From positions 1 to 23,119 of IMG/VR virus record IMGVR_UViG_3300044766_000135: a stretch of 23,119 nt of DNA; one strand, written 5' to 3'. The first letter of the stretch is position 1; every line of letters begins with the position of its first letter. A program made the position numbers and the translations under genes. Below the pieces are notes generated by a model, which made no database searches, was not told where the DNA came from, and was given only the letters and a program-made list of their open reading frames with translations. Below are positions 3,050 to 23,119 of this stretch, piece by piece. Origin of the DNA: a virus.

Positions 3050-3607
3050 GTGGCCGTTCTTGACACAGCTCTAGCAGCGATCAAGAAGACGCTGTCTGAT
3101 CTATCGCTCGGAGACGAGACGTTGCTGGTATCAGTGGCTCTCGTAAGCAAGGAGCGCTTGTCAGGTTCTTCGGTTCCGGGGCCCTCGACAAGGCCTTCAA
3201 CGGGGCCCTCGATAGAGCGTAACGTCAGGGTCTGCAAAACCGAGCAGCTCGGGGAAGAGCGGTACGTACTTGGTGTCGTGCTCGAGCCAGACACAGTAGA
3301 TAGTCAGGGAGATATTTATTCGGCAGAGACAGTACGTCAAACCGCTTACAAGTTCATGGAGGAGTACGAGAACATCGGACTCCAACACAGCGGTCTGATC
3401 AATGACAAGGTCAAGATACTGGAGAGCTGGATTCAGCGCGACGACTCAAACATCGGCGGGCAATTAGTGAAGGCCGGAACGTGGATGTTGGCTGTGAGAG
3501 TTCTGGACGATGAATTGTGGGCGGCAGTTAAGGACGGGCGTATTACAGGATTCTCGATCGGCGGAACCGGAAAGCGCTTGCCGCTTGTTACGTCATCTAT
3601 GGCATAA
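3050..3607 (+). CDS. XkdF-like prohead serine protease (catalytic part)
   Basis: Prohead proteases cleave scaffold and capsid proteins inside the immature head. Residues 74-170 carry the family pattern: VLEPDTVDSQGDIYS, a helix ending KFMEEYENIG, then LQHSG with candidate catalytic His113, and finally ITGFSIGG with candidate Ser169. This fits the XkdF putative-protease family and, more distantly, the HK97 protease layout. Residues 35-56 form a Ser/Pro-rich linker after a short helical N-terminus. The start is GTG at 3050, preceded by GGGAGCGG. At only 185 residues the protein stops soon after the serine loop, in tandem in-frame stops TAA TGA. The usual following strand (EVSLVDRPAN) appears instead at the start of the next gene, in the same frame. 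Confidence 0.8.
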   Translation: MAVLDTALAAIKKTLSDLSLGDETLLVSVALVSKERLSGSSVPGPSTRPSTGPSIERNVRVCKTEQLGEERYVLGVVLEPDTVDSQGDIYSAETVRQTAYKFMEEYENIGLQHSGLINDKVKILESWIQRDDSNIGGQLVKAGTWMLAVRVLDDELWAAVKDGRITGFSIGGTGKRLPLVTSSMA

Positions 3608-3622
3608 TGAGGAGAAGCTATG
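3605..3622 (+). other. In-frame double stop and restart splitting the protease
   Basis: TAA (3605-3607) and TGA (3608-3610) are followed in the same frame by GGA GAA GCT and the ATG at 3620. GAGGAGAAG acts as the ribosome-binding site of the next gene while sitting in frame with both genes. Translational coupling or reinitiation is therefore likely. Confidence 0.8.
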
Positions 3623-5326
3623 CTCGAACTAGTCGCTCAGAATTTGCTGACTGATATCACAACGAAGGAAGTGTCCTTGGTAGACCGTCCGGCGAATCTG
3701 CGCTCGTTCTTGGTACGGAAGCGTCAAGAGGGGGATCCTGTTGCGATCAATCCACTGTTGGCAGCGGATAAAGAGCTTGTTGCGATGGACAAGGCCGACG
3801 AGATTGATAAATTTCAACGCTGTGGATCTTGTGGTGCGTTTTTGCGCCGCGAGGATTTCGCAACGGGTGTTTGTCGACAATGTGAGTCGAAGATTCCTCA
3901 ACACCAACGTGAGCAAGGTGGGGGTGGTGCGGAAAAGGCAGCAGTAGGTGAGGTAGATAAAGCGACTTGGACCACCGCATATGTCAATGATCTGCCGGAT
4001 AGCGCATTTTTGTATGTTGAGGCTGGTGGTGAGAAGGATGAGGGTGGTAAGACTACGCCAAGGTCATTGCGACACTTTCCAGTGAAGGACAAGGACGGCA
4101 AGGCGGATCTTCCGCACGTGCGAAACGCTCTGGCGCGTATTCCACAGTCGAAGGTTTCGGCCGAGGCGAAAGAAAAGGCGAAGGCAAAAGCTGAGCGTAT
4201 GCTTTCTTCGGCGGAGAAGGCAGACACAGAGGTCGTGAAGTTCGAACGCTGCACAGTGTGTGGTGGTTTCTTGCCGAAAGAAGATTTCGCGACAGGCGTG
4301 TGTCCAAAATGTCAGGTGAAGGTTAGCGAGGGTAAAGTGAAAGATACTAAGAAGAATGAAGAACAGGCCGCGGCCGCCCCGGCCGCTCCGGCCGTCGAGG
4401 CCGCTCCGGTCGTCGAGGCCACTCCGGTCGTCGAGGCCGTGAAGGTCGCCCCGGCCGCCCCGGCCGCCCCGGCCGCCCCGGCCGCCCCGGCCGTCGAGGC
4501 CGTGAAAGCCGCCCCGGCCGCCCCGGCCGCCCCGGCCGCCCTGGCCGCCCTGGTAACAAAGGAGAATCCTTGTCCCGCTTGTTGTCCTTCTTCTTCTTCT
4601 TCTTCTTCTTCTTCTTCTTCTTCTGATCAACAAAAACTTCAACCCGCTCTTCGCGCGTCGATTTTGGCTGGGATCAATGCAATTAGTGTGTGTGCGGAAG
4701 CGGCCAAGAGCCTGACGGAAGGAAGCGTCGCGGATATCACTGGTGATTGTTGGTTGCCTTGGGATATTAGAGTGCAGTTGCAAATGATCGACGCGTTGGT
4801 TGATCGGTTGCTGGACGAGTGTATGGGCGGGATCGATTTTGAAGCGACAGCCATTCTGGTGGGGGCCGCAGCCAATGCTTCCAGCGTTGAGAAGGCAGGG
4901 GCCGCGATGGCGTCTTCTCGCCTGCGCAAGTTCACTTCTTGTCACGGTGATATGGGCAGCGCATTCAAGTCGATGCAGAAGGCTCACAAAGAGATGGGTG
5001 ATTTGTTGCACGAGCTTCAGCCTGCTGAGAAGGCGGAGACCGAGAAACAAGCAGTTCCGGCAAGTGTCCCAACTAGCAAGTCGGTTACTCCGCCGGCTGA
5101 GTCAAAGTCGGTGACGGAAATATCAAATAGTGCTTTGCTGAGCAAGCAAGTAGCTGATCTGCAGCGGCTTGTGGCTCAACAGGGTGCTCTGTTGACGAAA
5201 TTTCAGCAGCCGAAGGATTCAAATGTAATTCCTATTGGAGAATTTTCTGGCAATGGTGCTAGAATAAAAGGTGATGTTACGTGGCCAGTTGATCTGGCTG
5301 ATTCGGGAAAGCCTAAAAGGTTCTAG
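3620..5326 (+). CDS. Composite zinc-ribbon head protein with protease C-terminal strand
   Basis: A 568-residue mosaic. Residues 11-35 (TDITTKEVSLVDRPANLRSF) match the conserved end of phage prohead proteases. Two near-identical zinc ribbons follow, C68/C71/C85/C88 and C211/C214/C228/C231, both CX2C-X13-CX2C with EDFATGVC in common. Between them, residues 117-195 hold a conserved phage domain (YVNDLPDSAFLYVE, RSLRHFPVKD, LPHVRNALARIPQS), which I recall as a DUF6582-type domain. Residues 250-312 are Ala/Pro/Val repeats, 318-322 a CPACC cluster and 324-335 twelve serines. A helical region and a short coiled segment (SKQVADLQRLVAQQ) follow, and the protein ends WPVDL ... KPKRF. Probable role: internal scaffold or core protein linked to the protease. 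A strong RBS (GAGGAGAAG) precedes the ATG. Confidence 0.7.
   Translation: MLELVAQNLLTDITTKEVSLVDRPANLRSFLVRKRQEGDPVAINPLLAADKELVAMDKADEIDKFQRCGSCGAFLRREDFATGVCRQCESKIPQHQREQGGGGAEKAAVGEVDKATWTTAYVNDLPDSAFLYVEAGGEKDEGGKTTPRSLRHFPVKDKDGKADLPHVRNALARIPQSKVSAEAKEKAKAKAERMLSSAEKADTEVVKFERCTVCGGFLPKEDFATGVCPKCQVKVSEGKVKDTKKNEEQAAAAPAAPAVEAAPVVEATPVVEAVKVAPAAPAAPAAPAAPAVEAVKAAPAAPAAPAALAALVTKENPCPACCPSSSSSSSSSSSSDQQKLQPALRASILAGINAISVCAEAAKSLTEGSVADITGDCWLPWDIRVQLQMIDALVDRLLDECMGGIDFEATAILVGAAANASSVEKAGAAMASSRLRKFTSCHGDMGSAFKSMQKAHKEMGDLLHELQPAEKAETEKQAVPASVPTSKSVTPPAESKSVTEISNSALLSKQVADLQRLVAQQGALLTKFQQPKDSNVIPIGEFSGNGARIKGDVTWPVDLADSGKPKRF
4368..4550 (+). repeat. GCCCCG-type repeats encoding Ala/Pro/Val linker
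   Basis: Short, imperfect tandem repeats of GCC CCG GCC and GTC GAG GCC encode APAAPA and VVEA motifs in the 3620 gene. The unit is a multiple of three, so length changes keep the frame. They give rise to spurious Gly/Arg-rich open frames on the reverse strand. Confidence 0.85.
4587..4624 (+). repeat. CTT/TCT trinucleotide microsatellite (polyserine)
   Basis: An uninterrupted trinucleotide run about 38 bp long encodes twelve consecutive serines, all as TCT (4589-4624). Perfect codon identity points to recent slippage expansion, and the copy number is likely to vary between isolates without breaking the frame. Confidence 0.95.
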
Positions 5327-5355: not shown

Positions 5356-6294
5356 ATGCTTAATAACGAGACACTGTTGCAGAAGGCCGATGCCGCGCTG
5401 GCGGATCTAACCACGGGCGGCGGTTTGCTGCAGCCTGCTCAGGCGCAGAAGTTTCTGCGAGTGCTGATTGATGAGGCCGTGTTGCTGAAGATGGCCACGG
5501 TCACCCCAATGCGCAGCCCCAAGCAGTTGATCGAGAAGATCAAGTTTGGATCTCGCATTCTGCGTGCCGGAACTGAGAATGAGGCGCTTTCGGGGGCCGA
5601 TCGTTCGAAGCCGAATCTGGGCAAGGTCGAGTTGAATGCGCAGTTGTTCAAGGCGGAAGTTCGCCTGAACAACGAAGTGGTCGAGGATTCGATTGAGCGC
5701 GGTCAGCTTCGCCAGACCATCATGCAGTTGATGGCTGAGCAAATCGCTGTGGACATCGACGAGGTTCTCGTCAAGGGTGATACCACGTCGACGGATCCGT
5801 TCCTCGCGCAATTCGACGGTCTGCTCGCGCAGATTGGCTCGAATCAGTACGATCACACTGCCGGTACGGCGAATCGGACGCTCTTCAAGCACATGATGAA
5901 GGCAATGCCCCATCCGTTCATCCGGAACAAGAAGGCGTTGCGGTTCCTCACCTCGATTTCGGCCGAGATTGATTACCGAGATGCTCTCGGTGATCGTGCG
6001 ACGGTGGTTGGTGATCGGATGGTGCAAGAAGATGCGCCGACAATGTACGCTGGCGTGCCAGTGGTGTCGGTCCCCTTGTTCCCTGAGAACATCGGCACCG
6101 GTTCGTACTGCACTGACGCAGTGTTGATCGACCCGAAGAACGTCACTGTTGGCATTTGGCGTGACATTCGCGTCGAGACCGACAAGCTGGTCAGCGAGGG
6201 CGTCCTCCTGATCGTCGCCACCATGCGCTTCGACATGAAGCTGGCTCATGAGCCCGCGTCGGTCAAAGCCATCAACGTCAAGATCAACTCGTAG
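5356..6294 (+). CDS. Major capsid protein, HK97 fold
   Basis: A 312-residue capsid subunit that builds the icosahedral shell. Recognisable capsid segments are an N-terminal helix followed by FLRVLIDEAVLLKMATV, an extended E-loop-like region with basic and small residues (FGSRILRAGTENEA), and the spine-helix region LNNEVVEDSIERGQLRQTI. Then come VDIDEVLVKGDT, the VGDRMVQEDAPTMYAGVPVV segment typical of the axial domain, and a final strand region (TVGIWRDIRVETD). The N-terminus is short, with no delta domain, so scaffolding must come from another protein. The start ATG at 5356 has GCGAGGAAAGG upstream. It ends TAG TAG and is followed by a strong hairpin terminator, consistent with high, bounded expression. 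Confidence 0.9.
   Translation: MLNNETLLQKADAALADLTTGGGLLQPAQAQKFLRVLIDEAVLLKMATVTPMRSPKQLIEKIKFGSRILRAGTENEALSGADRSKPNLGKVELNAQLFKAEVRLNNEVVEDSIERGQLRQTIMQLMAEQIAVDIDEVLVKGDTTSTDPFLAQFDGLLAQIGSNQYDHTAGTANRTLFKHMMKAMPHPFIRNKKALRFLTSISAEIDYRDALGDRATVVGDRMVQEDAPTMYAGVPVVSVPLFPENIGTGSYCTDAVLIDPKNVTVGIWRDIRVETDKLVSEGVLLIVATMRFDMKLAHEPASVKAINVKINS

Positions 6295-7304: not shown

Positions 7305-7706
<402 letters not shown>

Positions 7707-21623: not shown

Positions 21624-23119
<1,496 letters not shown>

Follow-up and report, generated by a model that had tools for sequence, protein, structure and literature searches.

A prohead protease core gene and a scaffold-like gene that opens with the protease's last strand: a probable two-chain enzyme in a viral contig

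Our analysis of a 23,119-nucleotide stretch of viral DNA (the window) indicates that two adjacent genes on its plus strand likely encode a prohead protease made of two chains, in which the last strand of the protease fold is supplied in trans by the scaffold-like protein of the next gene. The split layout and its wide conservation can be read from the sequences, and docking of the strand on the protease core is predicted by modeling. An earlier note on this DNA had suggested such a two-chain enzyme, and the suggestion is supported by a split in 49 of 89 core loci, by the lack of any core without a strand among those loci, by confident docking, and by a fold resembling that of T4 gp21.

The upstream gene, gene 1 (3050..3607, plus strand), lies downstream of the portal gene and encodes 185 amino acids, with a GTG start and a TAA stop at 3605-3607. 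Its core matches Pfam PF14550 (Peptidase_S78_2, XkdF-type) over residues 59-176 with an E value of 1.1e-29, and the score of 103.4 bits, against a curated cutoff of 24, makes it a member of that family; the protein also matches the PHROG head maturation protease phrog_3017 (1.4e-39). With this match, the earlier assignment of a protease core with His113 and Ser169 as candidate catalytic residues is confirmed, as both His113 (CAC, 3386..3388) and Ser169 (TCG, 3554..3556, in a GFSIGG loop) are invariant in 44 aligned cores. The histidine is furthermore nearly invariant in 10 sequences, and an acidic core residue, Glu125 (3422..3424), is likewise invariant in the 44 cores. The gene 1 chain ends 16 residues past Ser169, directly after the serine loop.

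Gene 2 (3620..5326, plus strand, ATG at 3620) encodes 568 amino acids and is followed directly by the gene for the major capsid protein, of the HK97 fold (5356..6294, plus strand; PF05065, 2.3e-17; phrog_1623, 9.8e-94). The same position is held in the 10 of 10 relatives checked, where the next gene encodes a capsid protein, and by its place between the protease and major capsid genes, the scaffold-like gene 2 product is a candidate prohead scaffold. Its N terminus reads MLELVAQNLLTDITTKEVSLVDRPANLRSFLVRKR and contains the strand module LLTDITTKEVSLVDRPANLRSFLVRKR (residues 9-35; 3644..3724, plus strand), which the strand HMM finds with an E value of 5e-15, the window sequence being one of the 12 on which that HMM was trained; residues 8-21 are predicted to form a strand, and residues 15-26 read TKEVSLVDRPAN. 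Beyond the strand follow two zinc-ribbon-like CxxC...CxxC copies, a DUF6582-like module, Ala/Pro and poly-Ser stretches, and a C-terminal region. The first ribbon-like copy (residues 68-88; 3821..3883, plus strand) gives only weak zinc-finger HMM matches, and the second (residues 211-231; 4250..4312, plus strand) gives a weak match to zf-FPG_IleRS. The DUF6582-like module (residues 114-205; 3959..4234, plus strand), with the sequence TAYVNDLPDSAF...RSLRHFPVKDKDGKADLPHVRNALARIPQ, is 73% identical over 67 amino acids to a segment of the C-strand-fused protease of THSA-485A. This module belongs to the scaffold chain in the window and to the protease chain elsewhere, at the protease N terminus in loci L083 and L087 and in the protease of THSA-485A (L011). 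The DNA at 4370-4626, within gene 2, is of low complexity, with Ala/Pro repeats and then about 12 Ser codons (a TCT-type repeat).

The extent of the split was assessed with a profile built from the core alone, without strand columns, which was used to scan viral contigs for the best 80 loci, and with a strand HMM, which was run on 7,694 six-frame ORFs (stop to stop, at least 40 amino acids) of 89 core loci. By the HMM, the strand opens the next gene in 49 of the 89 listed loci and lies N-terminally in the same ORF as the core in 36; 12 of the split loci supplied the training sequences, and the N-terminal class holds many near-copies. The other four loci carry a divergent strand discernible by eye, located in the next gene in RcZahn and Mufasa8, N-terminally in HCTV-2, and C-terminally in psiM100. 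Unsplit proteases, which the note had advised seeking among close relatives, exist with the strand at either end of the chain. Every HMM match among the 7,694 ORFs either adjoins or is fused to a core, which, with the E value in the window, shows that the strand is no chance feature. The note had held that relatives with strandless proteases would count against its reading; none of the 89 listed loci has a core without a strand, by HMM and eye together. The occurrence of the strand in the next gene across the 49 HMM-supported loci assigns the window to a split subgroup of the Peptidase_S78_2/XkdF family; the usual XkdF layout, with the strand in the core's own chain, lies outside the Pfam definition and is not found in the window. 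The nearest relative, L002, has a core 76% identical to that of gene 1 and the same split, with a 30-nt gap, one stop, and a shared frame.

When next-gene starts were scored along with 1342 control ORF starts, those of RcZahn and Mufasa8 were outscored by no more than 2 controls. A next-gene strand is supported in these two phages, RHph_TM16, and SM1 (1-2/1342) and weakly supported in PAK_P3 and MSTV1 (9-11/1342). PVP-SE1, Bas59, phiA047, and ESCO5 (vequintavirus-type and related) were considered as split loci and rejected; they were left uncounted because the N terminus of the next gene is vaguely similar, with 36-165 of 1342 controls scoring as high, and because the longer tail of the core could hold a strand of its own. 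In the vequintavirus-type and related loci L099 (3492-4888), L092, and L101, protease and scaffold genes are separate and the scaffold starts with IALCHxxQGxxANxRxxSLLMKS, which might be a distant variant of the strand; its strand HMM score is not significant.

For structure prediction with AlphaFold2, the core and the gene 2 strand of the window were joined as one chain with the stops read through (TAA as G, TGA as S), and the alignment combined core-only rows with seven joined rows from frame-0 relatives, also read through their stops. The joined model reached a mean pLDDT of 85.9 and a pTM of 0.78. Its core lies at a pLDDT of about 95-98, the linker at 63-75, and the gene 2 strand (model residues E143-156, gene 2 residues 8-21) at 92-93, which places the strand firmly despite the loose linker. 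The strand packs on the core of a gp21-like fold in this joined chain, a packing that the note had proposed to test by predicting the two proteins together. The best match among solved structures is T4 gp21 (PDB 5JBL; Foldseek E value 1.2e-4, probability 1.00). A VIA comparison aligned model residues 9-158 with gp21 residues 25-172 (Z 10.5, rmsd 3.3, 124 aligned) and gave Z values of 5-7 for herpesvirus proteases (6.8 for the HCMV protease), where a Z below 8 is weak by itself and gp21 stands well above unrelated rows. The structural match to the T4 gp21/herpesvirus protease fold, last strand included, applies to the core together with the gene 2 strand, modeled as one chain. Searching solved structures by sequence returned no relative, and when the profiles of the core and T4 gp21 were compared by sequence alone, the result was not convincing; the likeness emerged from the fold search alone. 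The natural N-strand XkdF protein of L082 (pTM 0.76; five models, more variable, with mean pLDDT of 61-79) matches gp21 over 2-154 only, and a match that stops at gp21 position 154 is consistent with a last strand supplied by the N terminus. A point against the two-chain reading is that the fold, as predicted, might also hold up with the strand slot left empty.

The stretch of T4 gp21 past its catalytic serine includes LTVGVDAVWGPSAPDAWV, with Asp168, which we take to be the third member of the triad, in keeping with the alignment to SPN3US gp245. The VIA alignment ends with model residue 158 (Arg23 of gene 2) on gp21 residue 172, so the gene 2 strand covers the gp21 stretch up to 172, position 168 included; if the last block of that alignment is free of gaps, Asp168 pairs with gene 2 Ser19 (3674..3676, plus strand), a residue that is serine in 42 of 42 nonredundant split loci. 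The position of Asp168 is thus taken by Ser and not by Asp, and Glu17 of the strand is not kept in the N-strand XkdF proteins. In SPN3US gp245, the triad is H77/S153/D178, which was aligned with T4 gp21, and the third residue follows the serine (PMC5694885); for gp245 cut short at residue 155, inactivity is expected because this residue would be missing (PMC7411985). In the two-chain enzyme, the third catalytic residue might be Ser19 or could be Glu125 of the core, a candidate on the grounds of its conservation.

Glu125 as a candidate also lends substance to an alternative in which the core needs no partner to fold and work, and the scaffold strand serves solely as a tag for docking, recruiting the core into the prohead; an invariant Glu125 could then complete the triad within gene 1. 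Recruitment signals of proteases are known, and in SPN3US gp245 packaging, but not activity, depends on the C-terminal domain (PMC7411985). However, the strand belongs to the protease chain itself, at either end, in single-chain relatives, none of the 89 cores lacks one, and the gp21 positions that it covers include that of the triad at 168. We therefore regard a mere docking role as unlikely, if worth keeping in view.

On the two-chain reading, gene 1 would make the catalytic core (His113, Ser169, Glu125) of a serine protease of the T4 gp21/herpesvirus type from which the last strand is absent, and the gene 2 product, translated from its own start codon, would insert its N-terminal strand into that core in trans. 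Since the strand covers the gp21 region that holds the third catalytic residue, a core on its own probably lacks stability or activity, and the enzyme probably becomes complete only on docking to the scaffold. Docking would bring the protease into the prohead as it grows and complete the active site there, so that the scaffold strand may switch the protease on in the prohead; the scaffold would then be cleaved, leaving a mature enzyme of core plus strand peptide. Separate genes would furthermore allow scaffold to be produced in larger amounts than protease. T4 contains about 580 copies of the scaffold gp22 and about 55 of the protease gp21 (PMC9958956), a disproportion that separate genes would suit. 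The note had seen in the tie between protease and scaffold a control of their ratio, which is conceivable; the proposal that the scaffold completes the fold is the stronger one. Going further, a whole lineage of tailed-phage proteases may have a divided active domain, in which the scaffold contributes not just a strand but also an active-site position and serves as an obligatory activator, such that the protease is active only where scaffold assembles. We put the chances of this wider proposal at slightly under even.

Conservation of the strand points to a functional role. Across the 42 nonredundant split loci, its motif is E-V-S-x-V-D-R-A/P-A-N...F-L...K, with Glu in 41/42, Ser, Val, and Ala each in 42/42, and Asn and Lys each in 41/41. 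Similarity is detectable in 654 of 861 pairs of gene 2 proteins and includes the strand in every one, with similarity outside the strand in just 38 of the 861; mean identity is 58% within the strand versus 27% elsewhere. By these comparisons, the strand is almost the sole part common to the downstream proteins, and the alignments show purifying selection upon it. The gene 2 strand might be regarded as a leftover of gene fission without any role in the protease, as fission of a core-strand-scaffold protein like psiM100 ORF12 would produce exactly this layout, but the strand is better conserved than any other part of these otherwise varied scaffold proteins, and its core motif is invariant across 42 loci, which makes such a relic very improbable.

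As regards the history of the arrangement, the claim that this segment normally follows the serine loop in phage proteases proved true in part. The strand follows the loop in the same chain in HK97 gp4 (REISVCTFPAN), psiM100 ORF12 (TISIVDKPAV), and THSA-485A (IEVSVVDYPAY), but it precedes the core, in one chain, in proteins of the XkdF subfamily. In a tree of 64 cores, which is built on few columns and resolves poorly, the layouts cluster and about six changes are needed, and well-supported branches force at least two changes for each layout. Under a simple history, the split would have arisen by division of a core-strand-scaffold protein at the core/strand boundary.

The junction between the two genes consists of tandem stops (TAA TGA, 3605..3610, plus strand) and a Shine-Dalgarno AGGAG (3610..3614, plus strand) that overlaps the second stop and lies 5 nt before the ATG at 3620; as reported earlier, both genes are in one frame, separated by TAA TGA GGA GAA GCT. 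The AGGAG before its ATG gives gene 2 an initiation site of its own. Coupled initiation is plausible from the layout, as stop and start are 12 nt apart here and ATGA overlaps occur at the core/strand-gene junction in many split relatives. The same features bear on the proposal that occasional readthrough of TAA TGA yields a functional protease-scaffold fusion of 758 residues. The shared frame, with no further stop between the genes, would permit it, and the genes of L002 are likewise in one frame with a single stop. However, the tandem stops are followed immediately by a strong ribosome-binding site and ATG, and the junctions of relatives are mostly out of frame or ATGA overlapping: the offset is 0 in 9 split loci, 1 in 17, and 2 in 23 (49 loci, window included), so that the common frame of genes 1 and 2 is at chance level. 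On account of this frame distribution and junction anatomy, we reject readthrough as scarcely credible. That the split stems from an error in sequencing or from a nonsense mutation of recent date, conceivable for one metagenomic contig, can be dismissed, as L002 and 47 other loci are split alike with differing junctions, as are the annotated phages RcZahn and Mufasa8; judged from these relatives, the split is ancient and no local mutation.

Several known systems share parts of this arrangement. Like XkdF-type proteases (PF14550), gene 1 has the core sequence, the His and Ser positions, and the placement between portal and major capsid genes, and the strand motif is shared as well, but a typical XkdF protein combines an N-terminal strand and a C-terminal scaffold-like region in one chain, whereas strand and scaffold form a separate chain in the window. 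The psiM100 ORF12, THSA-485A, and HK97 gp4 proteins resemble the pair in having the motif after the serine loop, but theirs is one chain, which in the window is cut between loop and strand. T4 gp21 is alike in fold, and its serine loop and last strand occupy corresponding positions, but it is a single chain with 17% sequence identity to the joined model, and its scaffold, gp22, is encoded by an independent gene. Protease and scaffold are also tied genetically in the nested genes lambda C/Nu3, Mu I/Z, and herpesvirus UL26/UL26.5, which make scaffold in excess from its own start; there, however, the protease chain has the scaffold as its C-terminal portion and contains a complete protease domain, whereas here the chains are separate and the domain is divided. 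We found no description of a divided prohead protease or of strand complementation in the open-access literature, a search that most subscription papers lie outside, so this absence is no proof of novelty. It has long been asked how phage proteases are kept silent until prohead assembly is done, and a protease lacking its strand until scaffold binds would, if true, be a simple answer. A divided enzyme would also explain the short conserved motif that opens many otherwise diverse scaffold proteins, and would mean that family models and annotation see just part of such enzymes.

Some further observations concern annotation and neighboring genes. L012 (1436-4354), L022 (1316-4345), and L013 (3002-4432) carry the protease core in C-terminal fusion to a D12-class adenine methyltransferase; here too the core stops shortly past the serine loop, and the next gene begins with the strand. 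Short protease-core proteins of PAK_P3 (L093, 2919-3335; 138 amino acids) and ESCO5 (L094, 3387-3866; 159 amino acids) are annotated "DNA methyltransferase," a label probably carried over from methyltransferase-protease fusions in phrog_1530. Elsewhere in the window, collagen-like GPTGPTG repeats occur in two separate proteins, at 7317-7706 and at 22700-23119, the second of which runs off the contig end.
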